34,337 nucleotides of DNA from Sulfurimonas sp. Its GTDB lineage: Bacteria; Campylobacterota; Campylobacteria; Campylobacterales; Sulfurimonadaceae. Location: NCBI RefSeq assembly GCF_016744025.1, contig NZ_JADGFC010000012.1, forward strand, positions 1-34,337. Reading direction: 5' to 3'. Positions 6,362 through 16,617 of the stretch are shown one piece after another; within the stretch, counting starts at the first letter, position 1; each line of letters opens with the position of its first letter. The translations under genes were made by a program, and so were the position numbers. The notes under the pieces are model-generated. The model ran no database searches. It saw nothing but the letters and a program-made list of their open reading frames with translations, and was not told the DNA's origin.

Positions 6362-6570
6362 ATACTCTTCAAGATGCTTCTTATAATTTAGCTAAAGGAG
6401 AAGGTGATTTAACAAGTCAAATAATAGTTCCTGAGGGTGATGAAATTTCTGAAGTAGCTCAAAATATAAATGCTTTTATTGATAAAGTTCGCAGTACAGT
6501 ATCCCAAGCTAAAACTTCATCTTCTCAAAATACAGATATTTCCCAAACACTATCCGAGACTTCATCAAGC

Positions 6571-7338
6571 ATGAAAGTAAAAGCACAAGAAGAGAGTAAT
6601 CTGGTAAATAAGGTATCAGTTGAAGGTCAAGATCTTAAAGATATTCTTACTTTTTCAATTGAACAAGCAAAAACTACAAAAGAAGATATCAATTTAGCTG
6701 GAGAGATACTTAAAGGTGCAAACGAACAAATAGTTGAATTGGCAACAGATATTCAAGTACGTGCCCAAGAGGAAATAGAGTTATCACATAAACTAGAGCA
6801 ATTAAGCGCAGATGCCACTCAGGTTAAAGATGTATTAGTAATTATCGCAGATATTGCCGATCAAACAAATTTATTAGCCTTAAATGCTGCTATTGAAGCT
6901 GCTCGTGCAGGTGAGCATGGACGTGGATTTGCTGTTGTTGCTGATGAAGTTCGTAAACTTGCGGAGAGAACTCAAAAAACACTCAGCGAGATTAATGCGA
7001 CAATCAGTGTTATAGTTCAGTCTATTATGGACGCTAGTGAAAGTACTTCTAAAAATGCTCAAGCCACTGAGAAATTATCTAAAGATGCAAGTAATACTGA
7101 AAATGAAATCAGTACAAGTATGCAATCAATAGAACGCTCTATCGTTCAAGTAGATGAAACAGTTACAGGATATATTAAAAATTCTCAAACTGTAGAATCT
7201 ATGATTCATAAGGTTTCAGAAATACAAGAGATATCAACAGAAAATAAAAAAAGTATGGATGACATCTCAGATGCGTCTTCTAAATTGACACAAATGACTA
7301 TAAATCTAAATGATATGCTTAAAGGTTATAAAACTTAG
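6571..7338 (+). CDS. Orphan chemoreceptor cytoplasmic signalling domain
   Basis: A 255-residue 3' remnant. The frame is open further up, from about 6358, and starts with the HAMP-end motif [13 protein letters not shown] and [14 protein letters not shown], which has no usable start; the first ATG is at 6571. It holds the complete MA domain with the highly conserved hairpin tip [20 protein letters not shown], then [19 protein letters not shown], the region that binds CheA and CheW. With TM1, TM2 and HAMP missing, any product would be a soluble receptor tail. Soluble receptors exist in this class, but the visible wreckage upstream argues that this one is a remnant. It is part of the pseudogene 5282-7338. 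Confidence 0.55.
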
Positions 7339-7371
7339 TCCATTATAATGAAATCTTAAACAACTCTTAGA

Positions 7372-7377
7372 TATAAT
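7372..7377 (+). promoter_or_regulatory. Putative -10 element for the ybiT-type gene
   Basis: A perfect TATAAT in CTTAGATATAATCGCG, 68 bases upstream of the ATG at 7446. It would drive the four-gene run 7446-10511. No clear -35 is seen. Confidence 0.5.
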
Positions 7378-7445
7378 CGCGAAAATAGCTAAAGTTGCCT
7401 GCAAAACAGAATATTCTTTGGTAAATCAATCTAAGAGATATAATT

Positions 7446-9053
7446 ATGGTAAACGTACAAAATTTAATTATGCGCTTTGGAAATAGAGTTCTATTTCAAG
7501 ACATTAACCTCAAGCTAGACCGTCACAAACGATATGGTCTTATTGGTGCTAATGGCGCCGGAAAAACAACTTTTTTGAAAATCCTATGTGGTCAAATTGA
7601 TGAATTCGAAGGTGATATCGTTATCCCTAAAGCAAATAAAGTTGGTGTTTTAGGACAGAATCAATTTGCTTTTGAAGATTACACAATTCTAGATGCTGTT
7701 CTTTTTGGTAACAAAAGACTATACGATGCAATCAAAGAAAAAGAGTTGCTTTATACAACTGGAGACTTCGAAGATGATGCAGTTAACAATCGTCTTGCAG
7801 AATTAGAAGTAATCTCAGTTGAAGAAGATCCAACTTACGAGTATGATGTAAATATCGCTAAAATACTTGAGAATGTAGGAATTGAAGCTGATTTACACCA
7901 AAACCTTATGAGTACACTAGATAGTGCTGATAAATTCAAAGTTTTACTTGCACAAGTTTTATACCCAAAACCAGATGTACTATTTCTTGATGAGCCTACA
8001 AACAACCTTGACATCGAGACAATTAGTTGGTTAGAAAATGAGCTTAAGCGCCATGAAGGAACTATGGTAGTTATCTCTCACGATAGACACTTCCTTAATG
8101 CTGTTGTTACAAATATCCTTGATGTTGATTATCAAAAAATCCGTGAATTTACTGGTAACTTTGATGATTGGTATATTGCTGCAAATGTAATAGCAAAACA
8201 GATGGAACTTAACAATGCTAAAAAAGAGAAAGAAAAAGATGAACTAGAAGCTTTCGTTCGTAGATTTAGCGCAAATGCTTCTAAAGCTAAACAAGCAACT
8301 TCAAGACAAAAAAAACTTGATAAGCTAGTTATAGAAGATATAAAACCATCTTCAAGAAGAGATCCAAGTATTGTTTTTAAAGCAAAAAGAACTATGGGTG
8401 ATGAAGCATTAACTCTCGTAAATGTAAATCATACTTATCCTGATGGTAATGAAGTTCTAAAAGATGTAAGTCTTAAATTTGAGCCAGGTGAAAAAGTTGC
8501 ACTTATCGGACCAAATGGTGCAGGTAAATCAACTCTTGTTAAAATTTTAATGGAAGAGATGAAAGCAAGTTCAGGAGAAATCAACTGGGGTGCTACAATT
8601 GAAAATTCTTACTTCCCTCAAGATACAGCTGATACAATTAGTGGTGATGGTACTCTTTACGATTGGTTAAGAGCTTTTGATCCTAAACGTGATATTGCAG
8701 AAATCAGAAACTGTCTTGGTCGTATGCTATTTAATGGTGAGCAACAAGAAAAATCTGTAGTGAGCATCTCTGGTGGTGAAAAACATAGAATGATGCTTTC
8801 TAAAATGATGTTAGAGGGTGGAAACTTTTTAGTTTTAGATGAGCCTTCAAATCACCTTGACCTTGAAGCAATTGTTGCACTAGGTGAAGGACTTTTAGAA
8901 TTTACAGGAAATGTAATATGTGTGTCACATGACCGTGAGCTTTTGGACGCATTTGCTAGTCGTATTATTGAAATACATGCTGATGGTAGTATTACAGATT
9001 TCAAAGGTTCTTACGAGGAGTATGCTCTTGTTAAGGAAAATGCTAAGGCATAA
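7446..9053 (+). CDS. ybiT: ABC-F family ATPase, YbiT type
   Basis: A soluble protein of 535 residues with two ABC ATPase domains and no membrane segment. ABC-F proteins bind the ribosomal E site and adjust translation. NBD1 has Walker A GANGAGKTT and Walker B VLFLDEPTNNLD, but its signature is degenerate (MSTLDSADKFKVLLAQ), as in E. coli YbiT (MSEVAPGWKLRVLLAQ), which is why I prefer YbiT over EttA or Uup. The linker carries the charged coiled-coil arm (KKEKEKDELEAFVRRFSANASKAKQATSRQKKL). NBD2 has GPNGAGKST, SISGGEKHRMMLSKM, FLVLDEPSNHLD and VSHDRELLD. It heads a run with three small genes; a hairpin follows its stop. Confidence 0.9.
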   Translation: MVNVQNLIMRFGNRVLFQDINLKLDRHKRYGLIGANGAGKTTFLKILCGQIDEFEGDIVIPKANKVGVLGQNQFAFEDYTILDAVLFGNKRLYDAIKEKELLYTTGDFEDDAVNNRLAELEVISVEEDPTYEYDVNIAKILENVGIEADLHQNLMSTLDSADKFKVLLAQVLYPKPDVLFLDEPTNNLDIETISWLENELKRHEGTMVVISHDRHFLNAVVTNILDVDYQKIREFTGNFDDWYIAANVIAKQMELNNAKKEKEKDELEAFVRRFSANASKAKQATSRQKKLDKLVIEDIKPSSRRDPSIVFKAKRTMGDEALTLVNVNHTYPDGNEVLKDVSLKFEPGEKVALIGPNGAGKSTLVKILMEEMKASSGEINWGATIENSYFPQDTADTISGDGTLYDWLRAFDPKRDIAEIRNCLGRMLFNGEQQEKSVVSISGGEKHRMMLSKMMLEGGNFLVLDEPSNHLDLEAIVALGEGLLEFTGNVICVSHDRELLDAFASRIIEIHADGSITDFKGSYEEYALVKENAKA

Positions 9054-9065
9054 GCAAATTTACTT

Positions 9066-9081
9066 TTCGCCTTCGGGCGAA
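9066..9081 (+). other. UUCG-tetraloop hairpin after the ybiT-type gene
   Basis: Perfect stem TTCGCC-TTCG-GGCGAA just after the stop at 9051-9053. UUCG tetraloops are very stable. The downstream tract is A-rich (TAAATAAAAATAAAA), not T-rich, so it is a poor plus-strand terminator; it may be a processing or attenuation site, or protect the upstream message 3' end. Confidence 0.5.
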
Positions 9082-9105
9082 TAAATAAAAATAAAAGGAT
9101 GAACA

Positions 9106-9957
9106 ATGCCAAAATATAAAAATTTTCTAGGTCTTGGTATAGCAGGTAACTTTGCTTTGCATCTAGCTCAAGCTGGTGAGTTAGAAGAGTTTAAAGATAT
9201 TATAACTGCAGATGAAGCAGCACCTAAAGGCATGTTCCCTTTTTATTTACCTCGTTCAAGTGATAAAGAAAATCAACTTCCTTTAAACGCTAAAGATATT
9301 TTATCTACCTACCCTCTTTCAAACTCTCGAATCAAACTTCCAAAAGAAGATATAAATATTCAAGCTGAACCTGAAGTTGCTCTTATTTGTAATCTACAAT
9401 ACTCTGATGGAAAACTATCTAAAATAACACCAACTCACTTTGGTGCTTATAATGACTGTTCTATAAGAATTGCTGGAAAGAGTAAAATCAGTGACAAAAA
9501 GAACTGGGGAGAAAATTCTAAAGGAATTAGTGATTCTCTTGTAAAAATAGATAAGTTTGAAGAAGGCGGGGTAATGGATTCATACTCTATTTGTAGTTTT
9601 CTTTCTCGTGATGGTGAACTTCATGCTTATGGAGAAGATGTAGAACTTAATGGTTACAGTTACTTTTATGACAAACTTCTTGTGTGGATGACAAATCAAA
9701 TCAATGTCCAAGAAAACTTTGGACCACTAGAACCTCTAAGCGAATACCTTCAAGCATGTGATAATCCTAAAGAAGCAATTATAAGTATTGGTGCTACTAG
9801 ATATACGGAGTATGGAGAAAGCACATTTTTGAAAAATGACGATGAGATAATTATCGCACTTTATAATAGAAATGATTTTTCAAAAGAAGAAGTTACTCAA
9901 AATATTAAAAATAACGCATATGATAAGATGTGCGTATTGGCTCAAAAAGTAGTTTAA
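9106..9957 (+). CDS. DUF5718-like protein of unknown function
   Basis: A 283-residue soluble protein that I tentatively place in the DUF5718 family, known mainly from this bacterial class. Its central part (EPEVALICNLQY, THFGAYNDCSIRI, KNWGENSKGIS) is reminiscent of the fumarylacetoacetate hydrolase fold, where similar positions bind a metal and the ketoacid, but the match is by eye and the enzyme activity is unproven. No signal peptide or membrane segment. A good AAAGGATG purine stretch precedes the ATG. It lies one base upstream of a DUF1653 gene and is probably co-transcribed with it and with the SUI1-like gene. Confidence 0.65.
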   Translation: MPKYKNFLGLGIAGNFALHLAQAGELEEFKDIITADEAAPKGMFPFYLPRSSDKENQLPLNAKDILSTYPLSNSRIKLPKEDINIQAEPEVALICNLQYSDGKLSKITPTHFGAYNDCSIRIAGKSKISDKKNWGENSKGISDSLVKIDKFEEGGVMDSYSICSFLSRDGELHAYGEDVELNGYSYFYDKLLVWMTNQINVQENFGPLEPLSEYLQACDNPKEAIISIGATRYTEYGESTFLKNDDEIIIALYNRNDFSKEEVTQNIKNNAYDKMCVLAQKVV

Positions 9958-10174: not shown

Positions 10175-10511
10175 AGGAAAAAAACTAGATATTTTCATTG
10201 GTGCAGATATTGACGATGGATGGGCACAAGTTCAAACTCCTCGTAAATCTAAGGTATCAAATGAAATACTAGAACCTTCTAAACACTTTTTAGTATTTAA
10301 AAAAGAAAAAAGACGAGGGAAAACTGTAACTCTTGTTGGTGAATTTCAACTTCCAAAAGAAGATACTACTGCTACACTTAAACTCTTAAAAAAGAAACTG
10401 GGTTGTGGTGGAGCTTATAAAGATAATTGGATGGAATTTCAAGGCGAACTAAAAGTTAAACTAAGAGAACTATTAGTAAATGAAGGCTTTAGGTTTAAAC
10501 ACGGTCACTAA
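10167..10511 (+). CDS. yciH: SUI1/eIF1-like translation factor, YciH family
   Basis: A 114-residue protein of the bacterial YciH (SUI1) family. The SUI1 core is clear in the second half: EKRRGKTVTLVGEFQLP, TTATLKLLKKKLGCGGAYKD and MEFQGELKVKLRELL, ending GFRFKHGH. eIF1 checks start-codon choice; YciH has been linked to discrimination against aberrant initiation in bacteria. The frame is open upstream to 10122, but MSRGKKLDIFIG from the ATG at 10167 is preferred because GGAG (10157-10160) sits seven bases before it. It overlaps the DUF1653 gene by eight bases and its stop overlaps the stop of the convergent diguanylate cyclase. Confidence 0.88.
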   Translation: MSRGKKLDIFIGADIDDGWAQVQTPRKSKVSNEILEPSKHFLVFKKEKRRGKTVTLVGEFQLPKEDTTATLKLLKKKLGCGGAYKDNWMEFQGELKVKLRELLVNEGFRFKHGH

Positions 10512-11767
10512 GCACCTATCTGCTCAGAGCTCTCTAGGACCGTTGCTTCACTTACATTGGTTGTAATGATATAACCATCTCTGCCACTCTCTTTAGCTTT
10601 GTATAGCATCTCATCAGCACGACTTATTAATATATCTTCATTAAGAGCCTCATCAGCTACGCAGCATACTACCCCGATTGATATAGTAAGAAATTCATTG
10701 ACCTTACTTGTCTCATGTTTTATCTCTCTTAATCTAATTGAGTCACATATCTCACGTGCTAATCTAGCGCTATTTGACTCATCAGTATCGATAAGTAAAA
10801 CACCAAACTCTTCTCCACCTAATCTAAATACATAATCACTAGGTCTTTTTAAAGAATCTTTTAATACCTTAGCTACACTCTTAAGTGCGAAGTCTCCTTC
10901 TATATGTCCATAAGTATCGTTATACTGTTTGAAAAAGTCTATATCTAACATCATAAAGGTTATATATGATTTTGTTCTTTTAGCACGTTTTAATTCTCTG
11001 TCGTATACAAAGTTAAAATACCTTCTATTATGAAGAGATGTTAAAACATCTGTATATGAAACATTTTCAAGCTTTTTATTTGCTCTTCTTAATTTTTTAG
11101 TTGTAATTTCTAATTTTGTATGATCATTTTGAATACTCTTAAAAACATAATATGAAATAATCAATACACCTAAAATGATTATAGATAAAATAATTCCAAC
11201 ATTTTGAATAAGCTTTTCATATAGGGAGAGAAAGCTTTTCCTCTCATATTTAGCAACTTCAACTTCATAGTTAATTAATTTTTTTACTGTTGAGTGAATA
11301 TGTTCTACTCGTTTTTCAAAGTTTTCCATAGAAATATTTTCTATTGTTTCTCCGGAGAGAACGCCATTGAGTATTTTTTTAAAGTATTCATTTGTTGCTT
11401 TTATCTCTAAAGCAGTATATTGAACATACTGAAGTTCTTCATCTCTTTTAAAATGAGACTCATAATTTCGCCATTGCATCTCTATTTTTAAAAGAGCATT
11501 TTCTATCTCAGATGTTGTTTGAGATGAGCTAATTTCAGTGTTTCTTGCTTTATATATTGTATTAGCGATTGAGCCATGATATATTTGAAGGATTTCATTT
11601 AATTCAGTTACTGGAACTAGTGAACCGAAGTATAGGGAGTCTAGATTTTTTTTCATGGAATTAATATTTAAATAACCCATTATTCCAATAATAACAAGGC
11701 CCATAGTAATAAGCATAAAAAGAAAAAACAGTTTACTTCTTAACTTTAGTGCTTCAATAAACTTCAT
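10508..11767 (-). CDS. Membrane-bound diguanylate cyclase (GGDEF)
   Basis: A 419-residue inner-membrane protein that probably makes c-di-GMP. TM1 is at about residues 12-34, then a roughly 150-residue periplasmic helical domain of the four-helix-bundle MCP type (ligand sensor), TM2 at about 189-210, a short coiled coil, and the GGDEF domain (about 237-405). The active site reads RLGGEEFGVLL, an active GGEEF form. An RPSD motif exactly five residues before it is the inhibitory I-site (RxxD), so product feedback is expected. DVLTSLHNRRYFN and SRADEMLYKAKESGRDGY are typical flanks. RBS TGGAGGA precedes the ATG. Divergent from the Crp/Fnr gene; convergent, with a four-base stop overlap, with yciH. 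Confidence 0.92.
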   Translation of the reverse strand: MKFIEALKLRSKLFFLFMLITMGLVIIGIMGYLNINSMKKNLDSLYFGSLVPVTELNEILQIYHGSIANTIYKARNTEISSSQTTSEIENALLKIEMQWRNYESHFKRDEELQYVQYTALEIKATNEYFKKILNGVLSGETIENISMENFEKRVEHIHSTVKKLINYEVEVAKYERKSFLSLYEKLIQNVGIILSIIILGVLIISYYVFKSIQNDHTKLEITTKKLRRANKKLENVSYTDVLTSLHNRRYFNFVYDRELKRAKRTKSYITFMMLDIDFFKQYNDTYGHIEGDFALKSVAKVLKDSLKRPSDYVFRLGGEEFGVLLIDTDESNSARLAREICDSIRLREIKHETSKVNEFLTISIGVVCCVADEALNEDILISRADEMLYKAKESGRDGYIITTNVSEATVLESSEQIGA

Positions 11768-11887: not shown

Positions 11888-12559
11888 ATGAAAGATGAGA
11901 AACTAGAATCTATAAAAAAATTAAATTTTTTTAAGTCTTTAGATAGTGAACAACTTCAAGAAATAAAAAGTATTTCTAATATAGTTGAGTATCCTAAAGG
12001 ATCTATACTATACTATGAAAACGACACTTTTAACAAAATCTTTTTTTTAGTTTCTGGAGTATTAAAAGTCTACAAAATTGATAAATTTGAAAATGAAATT
12101 TTCCTATACCACATTCACAAAAACTCTCTTATCTCTGAATTAACAAGCTTAGACAATGACTCTATCTACTGTTACTCAAATTCAGAGTTTATGGAAGACA
12201 GTATAATTATTGAAGTAAATTTTACAAAATTTAAAGAAAAATTTCTAGCTAACAATATACTTAATAATGAATTTATAAATGAAATTCTATTAAAAACTCA
12301 TCAACTACACTGTGTTGTAAATAGAGAACTTGTTTTTGATGCCACTGCCAAAGTTGCATTTATGATAAGTGAAGATTTAGAAATGTTTAACTCTTTAAAA
12401 AGACAAGAAGTCTCTTTTATGCTACATATTCAACCTGAAACACTTTCGAGAGTTTTGAAAAAATTAAAAAGAAGTGAAATCATAGAGGTAGAAAACTCTA
12501 ATATTTCTATTTTAGATTATGAAAAATTAAATAATATATTTAGAGGTGAACAATTATGA
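11888..12559 (+). CDS. Crp/Fnr-family transcriptional regulator, possible nap regulator
   Basis: A 223-residue regulator with an N-terminal cyclic-nucleotide-binding-type beta-roll (about residues 12-120: FFKSLDSEQLQEIKSIS, YPKGSILYYEND, FFLVSGVLKVYKI), a dimer helix, and a C-terminal winged helix with recognition region HIQPETLSRVLKKLKRSEII (about 177-196). It has only two cysteines, so it cannot hold the four-Cys [4Fe-4S] cluster of FNR; it looks more like the NnrR/DNR/NssR type, which senses NO-related signals. The cAMP-binding arginine-serine motif is not evident. Its stop overlaps the start of the P-box sensor gene (ATGA), and a perfect TTGAC-N4-GTCAA box stands before napA, so control of nap is a reasonable inference. 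Confidence 0.85.
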   Translation: MKDEKLESIKKLNFFKSLDSEQLQEIKSISNIVEYPKGSILYYENDTFNKIFFLVSGVLKVYKIDKFENEIFLYHIHKNSLISELTSLDNDSIYCYSNSEFMEDSIIIEVNFTKFKEKFLANNILNNEFINEILLKTHQLHCVVNRELVFDATAKVAFMISEDLEMFNSLKRQEVSFMLHIQPETLSRVLKKLKRSEIIEVENSNISILDYEKLNNIFRGEQL

Positions 12560-13566
12560 AAAAAGCAACTAGTATAAGTACAAAAATCAAAGTATTAGGT
12601 GCTCTTCTTATTGTATTAATGCTTAGTGTAATAGCTACCACAATATATTTAAACCAACAAAATGAAAAAGATGCCCTGATAATTAACATTGCAGGAAAGC
12701 AGAGGATGCTTACACAAAAAATGTCAAAGAATGTTTTTTATATACACTATAGCTCTAACAAAGATTTTTATGAACTAAATTCTGCTATCGATGAATTTAT
12801 AAAAGGTCTCAATACTTTAAGACATGGTGATTCAGATAAAAATATCTCTCCAGTTCCTACATATAAGATATCATTACAACAGATAGAAATAAATAAGCTT
12901 TGGGAACATTTTTATGAAAATATACAGAACTTCAAACTATATACTACTTCAGATTTAAATAGAAAAGTTGAACTTGAAGAAATTATTACTTCTATATATA
13001 TGGACAACACTATCCTTTTAGATAATGTAGATAAATTAGTAACCATGTATACTGATTATAGTGAAGACAAAACTAACTTTATCAAAACATTTCAGTACAC
13101 CGCTGGAATTATATTAATTATATTATTTTTGTACTCTCTTTTACAGTTACGTTCTATTGAGTCTCATGTTGATGCCTTTATGCAATACTCAAGAATGCTT
13201 ATAAATAATGAAGATATCTCAAATCTAAAACCACTACAACTAGAAGATGCAAGTGAGACTGAAATTGTTGAAGTAAGTGATACTATTAACTGTTTTATAC
13301 AAAAAGTTAATACTGCTATGGATTATTCTAATGGTGCATTACTTCAGTCTGAAAAAGCTGCTTCTAAATTAGAAGAGCTTACAGATGAGTTTGATTCTAT
13401 CATTGATGAATTAAAAGACAAGTCTTTAGTTCATAAACATCTTAATAATAGTGAAGATATAGTTATAGAATCAACGGAAGAACTCATGAACTCCACAAAA
13501 AAGCTATCTAACTTGAAGCGAGAGTTAGAAAAACTAACAAAAAGTTGCCAAGAAGCTAGAATATAA
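12556..13566 (+). CDS. PilJ/NarX-type P-box membrane sensor lacking an output domain
   Basis: A 336-residue inner-membrane protein. TM1 (about 12-32) is followed by a periplasmic domain whose first helix carries IINIAGKQRMLTQKMSK (about 42-58), the P-box of nitrate sensors NarX and NarQ and of the PilJ N-terminal domain; the conserved Arg50 matches the nitrate-contacting arginine position of NarQ. TM2 is at about 182-198. The remaining 138 residues are cytoplasmic helices, including a coiled coil, without histidine kinase, MA, GGDEF or other known output. It is coupled by a four-base overlap to the Crp/Fnr gene and lies just before napA, so it may report nitrate to that regulator or to another partner. 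The function is inferred, not shown. Confidence 0.8.
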   Translation: MKKATSISTKIKVLGALLIVLMLSVIATTIYLNQQNEKDALIINIAGKQRMLTQKMSKNVFYIHYSSNKDFYELNSAIDEFIKGLNTLRHGDSDKNISPVPTYKISLQQIEINKLWEHFYENIQNFKLYTTSDLNRKVELEEIITSIYMDNTILLDNVDKLVTMYTDYSEDKTNFIKTFQYTAGIILIILFLYSLLQLRSIESHVDAFMQYSRMLINNEDISNLKPLQLEDASETEIVEVSDTINCFIQKVNTAMDYSNGALLQSEKAASKLEELTDEFDSIIDELKDKSLVHKHLNNSEDIVIESTEELMNSTKKLSNLKRELEKLTKSCQEARI

Positions 13567-13676: not shown

Positions 13677-13682
13677 TAGTAT
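13677..13682 (+). promoter_or_regulatory. Putative nap operon -10 element
   Basis: TAGTAT placed 30-36 bases downstream of the centre of the Crp/Fnr box, giving a predicted start near 13688 and a leader of about 85 bases before napA. The match and spacing support an activated promoter; no independent evidence. Confidence 0.5.
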
Positions 13683-13773: not shown

Positions 13774-16617
13774 ATGTCACTTTCAAGAAGAGAATTTCTT
13801 AAAAGTTCAGCGGCAGCATCTGCAGCAGCAGCAATTGGTATGAGTGTACCAGCAGAGCTAGAAGCAGCGGCGAACAAAGCTGAAGGCGGCTGGAGATGGG
13901 ACAAGGCAGCTTGTCGTTTCTGTGGTACTGGTTGTGGTATCATGATGGCTACTAAGAATGGTAAAATTGTTGCTGTTAAAGGGGACCCTGCGGCTCCAGT
14001 TAATAGAGGACTAAACTGTATTAAAGGTTACTTTAATGCTAAGATTATGTATGGTGCGGATAGACTTACTCAACCACTACTAAGAATGGACGCTAACGGT
14101 AAATTTGACAAAAAAGGTAAATTTGCTCCAGTTTCTTGGAAAGTAGCATTTGATGTTATGGAAGAGAAAGCTAAAGCAGCTTTTAATGAAAAAGGTCCTG
14201 AGGGAGTAGCAGTATTCGCTTCTGGTCAGTACACTGTTATGGAAGGTTATGCAGCTCAGAAGATGATGAAAGGTGGATTCCGTTCAAACGCAATCGATCC
14301 TAATGCTCGTCACTGTATGGCATCTGCTGTTGTTGGTTTTTATCAAACATTTGGTATTGATGAGCCTTCAGGTTGTTATGATGATATCGAACTTACTGAT
14401 ACAATCGTATCTTGGGGTTCAAATATGGCAGAAATGCACCCGATCCTATGGTCTCGTGTAACTGACAGAAAACTTTCAGATCCTGAGAGAGTAAAAGTTA
14501 TCAATATTTCTACTTATACTCATAGAACTTCAGATTTAGCTGATTCAGAGATTATTTTCTCACCAAGTACAGACCTTGCTATGTGGAACTACATTGCTAG
14601 AGAAATCGTATTTAATCACCCAGAATCAATTGATTGGGATTTCGTAAACAAGCACATGGTGTTTGCAGCGGCACATCCAAACATCGGTTATGGTATGAGA
14701 AAAGCTGGTGAAAAGTCAATCAGAGAAGGTAAATATACTGACGCTGAAATGGAGATTATCAAAAAAGAAATGAAAACTATCGTTTCTGAAAAAGAAGCTC
14801 CAGCTCTAGCACCATATGGTTACAAAGCTGGTGATGAAATGATTCACAATAAGCCAGGTCTTAAGCACTGGTTAATAGAATTTGAAGAGTATAAAAAATC
14901 TTTAGCTCCATATACACTAGAGTATACTGCTAAAATTTCTAAAGGTGATCCAGATGAGTCTATTGAAAGTTTCCAAGCGAAACTTCAAAACTTAGCTAAT
15001 TTATACATTGAAAAAGGAAGAAAAGTAGTATCTTTTTGGACTATGGGTATGAATCAACATACACGTGGTACTTGGGTTAATACTCTTGCTTACAATGTTC
15101 ACTTTTTACTAAATAAACAAGCTAAGCCGGGTGATGGTGCGTTCAGTTTAACTGGTCAACCTTCTGCTTGTGGTACTGCTCGTGAAGTTGGTACATTTAC
15201 ACATAGACTTCCAGCTGATATGATGGTTAAAAATCCTAAGCATAGAGCTATTGTTGAGAAAAAATGGCAAGTTCCTGCAGGAACTATCAATGGTCAAATG
15301 GGACAACATATTATGCGTATCCACCGTGACCTTGAAGATGGTCATGTTAAATTTGCATGGATTAATGTTTGTAATCCTTACCAAAATACAGCTTCTGCAT
15401 CTCACTGGTTAAAAGCTGCTAGAGAGATGGATAACTTTATTGTATGTTCTGATGGTTACCCAGGTATTTCTGCTAAAGTTTCAGATCTTATCTTACCAAC
15501 AGCTATGATTTATGAAAAATGGGGTGCTTATGGTAATGCTGAGCGTCGTACTCAACACTGGAGACAACAAGTTCTACCAGTAGGTGATTCAATGTCAGAT
15601 ACATGGCAATGGATTGAGTTCTCTAAGCGTTTTACTATTAAAGATCTTTGGATGAAAGATGTTAAAGTAAAATGGGGCAAGAAAGACATGAAAGCTATCT
15701 CAGCAGCAGCAGTTAAAGCAGCTGGTTATACACCTGAGACTACTATGTTTGAAGTTCTTTTTGCTAATGATAGAGCTAAATCTTATAAAAAAGATATGAA
15801 CGATCCTATTAATACTGGATATGATGACACTGAAAGTAATGGCGATAGCCGTGGTGTTATGGGTTCAGATGGTAAAGAATGGGCAGGTTATGGTTTCCAT
15901 ATCCATAAATACCTTTTTGAAGAGTATGCAGCATTTACACGTGGTCACGGTCATGACCTTGCACCATTTGATGTTTACCATAAAGTTCGTGGTCTTAAGT
16001 GGCCTGTTGTTGACGGTAAAGAAACTCAGTGGAGATTCAATGCGAAATACGATCCTTATGCAGCTAAAGCTACAAAAGAGACTGGTAATTCACATGCATT
16101 CTACGGTGGATTCTTAAAAGTTCGTCCTCAAGGTAACTTGAATGGAATTAAGAAAGATTTAAAACTTAGCTATGCTGATAAACCAGGTAAACATTACCTT
16201 AAAAACAAAGCTAAAATCTTTGCTCGTCCATATATGGATCCTCCAGAAATGCCAGATGCAGAGTACCCTACTTGGTTAAGTACAGGTCGTGTATTAGAAC
16301 ACTGGCACTCTGGAACTATGACTATGCGTGTACCTGAACTATATCGTGCAGTTCCAGAAGCACTATGTTATATGCACCCTAAAGACGCTGAGAAATTCGA
16401 TGTAAAACAAGGTGGTTTATGTTGGGTAGAATCTCGTCGTGGTAAAGTAAAAGCTAGAGTTGAAACTCGTGGTAGAAATAGACCATCTCGTGGTCTTGTT
16501 TTTGTTCCATGGTTCGATGAAAAAGTTTTTATCAATAAAGTATGTTTAGATGCGACTTGTCCATTATCAAAACAAACAGACTTCAAGAAATGTGCTGTAA
16601 AAATTTACAAAGCATAG
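13774..16617 (+). CDS. napA: Periplasmic nitrate reductase catalytic subunit
   Basis: Reduces nitrate to nitrite in the periplasm with a Mo-bis-MGD cofactor and one [4Fe-4S] cluster. Residues 4-10 (SRREFLK) form a twin-arginine signal followed by an unusually Ala-rich h-region ending near ELEAAA. Cluster ligands are C47-x2-C50-x3-C54 and C82 (NCIKGY). The molybdenum ligand is Cys181 in [12 protein letters not shown]. The length of 947 residues matches the long epsilonproteobacterial NapA rather than the 828-residue E. coli form, the extra residues being spread over internal insertions. AGGAG at 13764-13768 fits the ATG. It is first in the nap operon, behind a Crp/Fnr box. Confidence 0.98.

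Follow-up and report, generated by a model that had tools for sequence, protein, structure and literature searches.

The window, a stretch of 34,337 nucleotides from a Sulfurimonas sp. that corresponds to contig C132 of the genome that we searched (2.93 Mb in 252 contigs), carries a gene for a Crp/Fnr regulator and a gene for a membrane receptor ahead of a nap operon (Table 1). The regulator and receptor ORFs share four bases in an ATGA overlap that is exact in window coordinates, and 207 bases separate the receptor stop from the napA start. A preliminary description of this DNA had noted a Crp/Fnr gene overlapping a P-box sensor gene ahead of nap, and its coordinates, strands and overlap all proved exact. 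One ORF of the nap operon is presumably napL, a label that we take from its position. Divergent from the pair, a gene encoding a 4HB_MCP-GGDEF protein (10508-11767, minus strand) is retained in several Sulfurimonas-type nap loci, and an MCPsignal ORF is found at 6571-7338 of the window.

Table 1. Features of the regulator-receptor-nap locus in the window
Feature	Position	Strand	Basis or remark
Crp/Fnr regulator gene, Nss/DNR kind	11888..12559	+	223 aa; Pfam cNMP_binding and HTH_Crp_2
Membrane receptor gene: TM1, PilJ/P-box, TM2, HAMP-like segment, helical hairpin	12556..13566	+	336 aa; Pfam and AF2 model
G47-x-x-R50 nitrate-contact motif of the receptor	12694..12705	+	alignment columns 47 and 50
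Conserved C-terminal helix of the receptor, proposed output surface	13447..13533	+	residues 298-326; conservation
Putative operator TTGACATAAGTCAA	13640..13653	+	sole perfect TTGA-N6-TCAA in the window; between receptor and napA
-10-like TAGTAT	13677..13682	+	37 bases from the operator's first base, class II spacing
napA, presumed target	13774..16617	+	NCBIfam NapA, 1425 bits
napG, napH, napB, napF, (napL), napD	after napA, to 20959		NCBIfam; NapD PF03927

Pfam assigned a single family to the receptor, PilJ (PF13675; 71.6 bits against a cut-off of 26.6, residues 31-124), which was the only one above its cut-off, also when matches were listed up to E = 10; in that same listing, no kinase (DHp, ATPase), MA, GGDEF or DNA-binding domain was found. 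The HAMP-like segment (about residues 198-254) was delimited by aligning the AF2 model (mean pLDDT 78.4, 34 alignment rows) with NarQ, Pfam HAMP being unmatched up to E = 10, and both TM spans are our reading of the sequence and the model rather than the output of a TM predictor. Structural comparison with VIA aligned the model with the nitrate domain of McpN (Z 17.8, rmsd 1.9, 124 aligned) and its residues 1-255 with NarQ as far as the HAMP region (Z 13.9, rmsd 3.0 over 222 residues), bearing in mind that high Z values arise easily for helical bundles. McpN and NarQ were also the only proteins among the Foldseek rows for this model at E ≤ 0.001 (7 rows). Since both the kinase and the MA domains are missing, the receptor belongs neither to the nitrate kinases nor to the chemoreceptors, as expected from the preliminary description, which had proposed a P-box sensor lacking an output kinase or MA domain.

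The binding motif of the receptor is that of the known nitrate sensors. G47 and R50 bear residue numbers identical to those of the nitrate contacts of NarQ, G-x-x-R contacts nitrate in NarQ, NarX and McpN, and replacement of the arginine, even by lysine, makes NarX and NarQ insensitive to their ligand (excerpts of PMC8199190). In a set of 215 unique regulator-receptor pairs, R50 was found in 160 receptors, 159 of them with G47, while the other 55 have K50, 53 of them with N47.

Beyond the HAMP-like segment, the receptor continues for only 82 residues. The cytoplasmic tail was modelled (75 rows, pLDDT 79.5) as a helical hairpin made of helices 235-285 and 290-333. Over the 215 unique pairs, mean conservation was 0.68 for the P-box and 0.60 for residues 298-326, compared with 0.38-0.52 for the other segments, and this C-terminal helix is conserved across all classes of the receptor. 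E300, D301, I304, E308, L310, L317, L320 and L324 rank within the 30 best conserved positions of the protein, and E300, D301 and E308 appear to exceed what a pure coiled-coil core would need. The tail motif was present in 192 of the 215 paired receptors versus 0 of 22 PilJ ORFs lacking a neighbouring regulator. The earlier view that the cytoplasmic part is only a coiled-coil tail therefore stands as far as the missing kinase and MA domains are concerned, but not otherwise, since this part includes a HAMP-like region and a last helix whose conservation is second only to that of the P-box. Relatives of the tail were also sought by fold, and nothing was concluded from them: VIA-align gave Z values of at most 10.0, to unrelated helical proteins, as is common for helices.

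The regulator matches cNMP_binding (37.3 bits) and HTH_Crp_2 (39.8 bits) in Pfam, and, among solved structures, it is closest in sequence to DNR (3dkw), a regulator that senses NO through haem. Cys95 and Cys142 are the sole cysteines of its 223 residues, a count that leaves no FNR-type four-cysteine Fe-S cluster site in this protein. The two cysteines occur together: both are present in 140 of the 215 regulators, neither in 72 and one alone in 3; among classes, both are found in 110 of 117 pairs with a single-PilJ R50 receptor and either one in 0 of 55 K50 pairs. Cys95 aligns with Arg82 of CRP, and Cys142 with Glu129, adjacent to Ser128, three residues of the cAMP pocket. The window regulator is tied to NssA of Wolinella succinogenes solely through identity values for a nap-linked homologue from Nitrosophilus labii, which is 44.8% identical to NssA (excerpts of PMC11539149). 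A third Crp/Fnr gene of the same genome (L005 1067-2145), 32% identical, is preceded by an ORF that resembles NosL by eye.

A perfect core site, TTGA-N6-TCAA, was found in the intergenic stretch of 44 of 67 nap loci and of 10 of 10 nos loci, when shuffled sequences lead one to expect 0.38 and 0.06, respectively (one further nos locus was omitted because its intergenic stretch is too short). As a genome-wide signal, this core form is not specific, with 193 sites versus 168 for the reversed pattern, and only the longer form TTGAC-N4-GTCAA (TTGACNNNNGTCAA) is, with three sites in the genome compared with one for its reversed control pattern. The three sites lie before napA, before nosZ and on contig C53. 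The latter (C53:3225; L285 1501-3013) stands ahead of a 113-aa ORF and of a gene for a multi-helix membrane protein, neither of which has a Pfam match. Across 55 loci, the best match to a -10 element begins 36-37 bases from the first base of the site, in agreement with the 48-49 bases between site and transcription start in N. labii (excerpts of PMC11539149); for the window itself, we infer the transcription start. Autoregulation was also considered: of 66 nap loci, 9 have a perfect core site upstream of the regulator, where 0.52 would be expected, and autoregulation is not claimed here because these upstream sites are too uneven.

The two genes are kept together far beyond chance. Of the 200 genomes in the family set, 126 were matched by the receptor query and 188 by the regulator query. 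Among the matches listed, 142 of 150 receptors lie 3' of a listed regulator on the same strand, five of these 142, about 500 bp away, each being the second half of a tandem-PilJ receptor; the remaining eight correspond to four contig edges and to four receptors with a weaker regulator directly upstream (three read in loci L054-L056, and that of G067 by coordinates). Beyond the family, a regulator precedes every full-length receptor match that was compared among those listed (73 of 73), a count that omits additional matches in genomes already represented, which are the second parts of tandem receptors. When the 215 unique pairs were examined, the two genes overlapped in 120 and were separated by no more than 20 bp in another 92, and the neighbour of the receptor was Crp/Fnr in all of them, so that a response-regulator gene as partner was absent from this set. 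At a threshold of E ≤ 1e-5, matches to the receptor profile came from 178 of 397 phylum genomes, in 49 of 68 genera, with other PilJ proteins included among the weak ones. In 80 loci that were read, the regulator lies directly upstream in 57, L149 providing one more; 20 loci hold other PilJ proteins, and two members have no readable pair, L138 owing to a contig edge and L146 owing to a broken frame. Sulfurospirillum diekertiae, Malaciobacter halophilus, Poseidonibacter ostreae, Aliarcobacter vitoriensis and Helicobacter rodentium all possess the pair.

PilJ proteins of other layouts also occur. Tandem two-PilJ receptors of about 440-470 aa with a similar tail occur in Sulfurospirillum and other genera (L047, L048, L105-L111, L125-L161). 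The 22 PilJ ORFs of the 20 loci mentioned above, which come from other groups, display G-x-x-R, but neither an adjoining regulator nor the tail motif, and were therefore set aside as non-members. Tail-less PilJ ORFs with G-x-x-R, about 280-330 aa long, are found in other phyla (L186, L188, L194, L199, L202 and others); some tail-less ORFs directly precede chemoreceptor-like genes that match window ORF 6571-7338, and they are possibly nitrate-binding partners of chemoreceptors.

The receptor also tracks napA. At E ≤ 1e-25, it was detected in 119 of the 397 genomes, corresponding to 117 of 331 with napA versus 2 of 66 without (G494 and G514), an association with a Fisher value of 5e-9 when kinship is ignored; the other 214 napA-positive genomes have no receptor at this threshold. 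Among pairs with enough flanking sequence, napA comes directly after 48 of the 80 that have a single-PilJ R50 receptor and 19 of the 40 that have a tandem one, and the other pairs are located near nap in different orders or away from nap. Conservation of the pair beside nap, which the preliminary description had named as a check, is borne out within and outside the family, and neither of the two outcomes named in advance as contrary, a pair that is not conserved with nap or an unlinked partner kinase, was found. No linked kinase partner was detected and no neighbour but the regulator is retained across families; likewise, a PF13675 search of the window's genome revealed no PilJ-domain kinase, the second match (C246, 21.7 bits, below the PilJ cut-off) being a GGDEF protein that was dropped. 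Five loci in four genera (L067, L068, L071, L072, L117) have the regulator, napA and a perfect core site without any receptor, the regulator being divergent from napA in L117 and directly before napA in the other four. The receptor is therefore not indispensable everywhere, and its absence probably leaves the regulator still able to act at nap. At residue 195, the regulator has R in 211 of 215 receptor-paired cases, and Q, Q, K, K and I in these five receptor-less ones; R195 is a possible contact residue, but since this lead was chosen after the fact, it is not counted as evidence.

A paralogous pair exists in the same genome on contig C82 (L037 5402-8110), where a regulator 45% identical to that of the window is followed by a 321-aa receptor homologue and then by nosZ. 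Pairs of this kind are also linked to nosZ in L038-L043, L045, L046, L074 and L075, and of the 22 nos-type receptors found across the phylum, 21 lie 242-289 bp before nosZ on the same strand, the exception being G031, where nosZ is on another contig. The N47/K50 pairs, a class that we met in the window's family alone, form one clade with a support of 1.0 in the receptor tree and in the regulator tree, showing that regulator and receptor were duplicated together. Two loci break the correspondence between class and neighbouring gene: in L096 (G386), nosZ is preceded by a G/R receptor, and in L044 (G163; 6405-9113) an N/K pair is followed by a gene for a PAS histidine kinase instead of nosZ. Since an Arg-to-Lys change blinds NarX and NarQ and since the NarQ R50K structure is listed as apo among the Foldseek rows, the nos-linked receptor should, judging from these residues, not be a NarQ-style nitrate binder, and should be either blind or tuned otherwise. 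The nos-linked pair is a candidate for an N2O or NO route.

On the basis of the computed architecture, motif, pairing, operator and duplication, we propose with high confidence that the regulator and receptor genes make up a single signalling unit for nap. The receptor would be a NarQ-like homodimer that binds nitrate in the periplasm between its two P-boxes, through G47 and R50, and the signal would pass via TM2 and the HAMP-like segment to the cytoplasmic helical hairpin, whose conserved C-terminal helix would act directly on the co-encoded Nss-type Crp/Fnr regulator without phosphorylation. The regulator would then activate nap from the operator at its class II spacing. That nitrate is the signal seems likely from the conserved residues of the P-box, and we consider it fairly probable that the receptor tail touches the regulator; the mechanism in full, with a nitrate-bound receptor controlling the regulator through its C-terminal helices without phosphorylation, is a reading that we favour by a modest degree. 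As to its sign, anti-activation, in which the regulator would be held without nitrate and released with nitrate, appears to have a slight edge over activation by contact, given that receptor-less lineages retain the regulator, the operator and nap. Points against this proposal are that nap is constitutive in N. labii (excerpts of PMC11539149), that the regulator is related to DNR and has the co-varying cysteines, and that the receptor is missing from the five loci and the 214 napA-positive genomes described above. An extension to the nosZ-linked copy is more tentative and, taken as a whole, rather doubtful: a receptor of the NarX/NarQ kind would control a Crp/Fnr regulator by contact and without phosphorylation, and the duplicated N47/K50 copy would sense another nitrogen oxide, possibly N2O, a signal postulated for Wolinella.

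The preliminary description had suggested direct contact or sequestration of the regulator at the membrane, and both remain proposals here; it mentioned neither the HAMP-like part and the conserved last helix nor the nosZ-linked pair, the operator, the receptor-less loci and the cysteine pair. Covariation between the two proteins was considered as evidence for the contact and rejected. A mean-field coupling analysis of the 215 pairs (Neff 134) gave 28 inter-protein couplings over z 4 versus 0 or 1 in six within-class re-pairing permutations. However, among the 172 non-tandem pairs, 48 couplings over z 4 joined the regulator to the periplasmic part, which it cannot touch, versus 46 to the cytoplasmic part, and couplings above z 3 per 1000 were 7.26 and 7.63, respectively. 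Because the periplasmic part scores equally, the signal is attributed to shared ancestry, and it is not evidence against contact either.

Among other explanations, the one that survives best, although we regard it as unlikely, is that the regulator senses alone, responding to NO or redox via Cys95/Cys142 or via haem in its effector pocket, while the receptor merely tunes it or reports elsewhere. The co-occurrence of the two cysteines at CRP effector-pocket positions and the five receptor-less loci that keep regulator, operator and nap fit this idea, but the receptor is never seen without the regulator outside the family, nor, contig edges apart, within it, and its binding site and target operon changed together, unlike what one expects of a mere passenger. 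Moreover, of the five receptor-less regulators, those of L067 and L068 alone keep both cysteines (by eye). Still, given the receptor-less loci and the co-varying cysteines, the regulator may sense on its own as well, and a second, cytoplasmic input through the Cys95/Cys142 site is possible alongside the proposed control by the receptor. Less probable again, and in our view improbable, is that the receptor acts by contact in response to nitrite, NO or another anion rather than to nitrate: P-box proteins of the NarX/NarQ kind do answer nitrite in addition to nitrate (excerpts of PMC8199190), but G-x-x-R is the nitrate contact in NarQ, NarX and McpN, the pair is linked with nap in the loci seen, and nap of W. 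succinogenes is induced by nitrate, NO and N2O, not by nitrite (excerpts of PMC8139620). Finally, signalling to an unlinked output, be it a kinase, a diguanylate cyclase such as that of 10508-11767 or chemotaxis, with a regulator that is merely co-transcribed, is very improbable in spite of the 4HB-GGDEF gene found beside the pair in several nap loci of the Sulfurimonas type and of the MCP-signalling ORF of the window, given that the regulator is the sole neighbour kept across families, that the genome has no other PilJ protein over the cut-off and that the two genes were duplicated together and stayed together.

A receptor that controls the co-encoded regulator, as we propose, would bear on a question raised for this phylum, as reviews of 2019 and 2021 describe NarXL-type systems as not conserved in Campylobacterota and call the sensing of nitrate, NO and N2O by Nss regulators an open question (excerpts of PMC6682613 and PMC8139620). 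Our literature searches, whose scope ended short of the primary paper on NssA-C, returned no description of the pair. It offers one gene, one motif and one operator for the nitrate question, and a sister pair at nosZ for the N2O side, next to genes that consume the greenhouse gas nitrous oxide. If the contact is direct, it would represent a third wiring of a P-box receptor, besides the kinase and the chemoreceptor, and a route by which extracellular signals could control Crp/Fnr proteins.

Four known systems invite comparison. With NarQ and NarX, the receptor shares the G47/R50 P-box and the four-helix periplasmic domain, and probably the two flanking TM helices and a HAMP-like segment, but it lacks their signalling/GAF-like, DHp and ATPase domains and ends in its own conserved helical hairpin, and its partner is a Crp/Fnr regulator instead of NarL or NarP. 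McpN/PilJ chemoreceptors have the ligand-binding domain (PF13675) in common with it, whereas their MA (MCP-signal) domain is absent here and no chemotaxis gene is kept beside the pair. NosR, a membrane protein on which nos transcription depends in Pseudomonas, likewise works with a Crp/Fnr regulator at nos, and its domains are presumably unrelated to those of the nos-linked P-box receptor homologue. Within the same phylum, there is a parallel with NssA, NssB and NssC of W. succinogenes and NssR of Campylobacter jejuni, which are also Crp/Fnr proteins acting at nap and nos through TTGA-N6-TCAA; the excerpts of the literature considered here name no membrane receptor acting with them, whereas the window pair has one.
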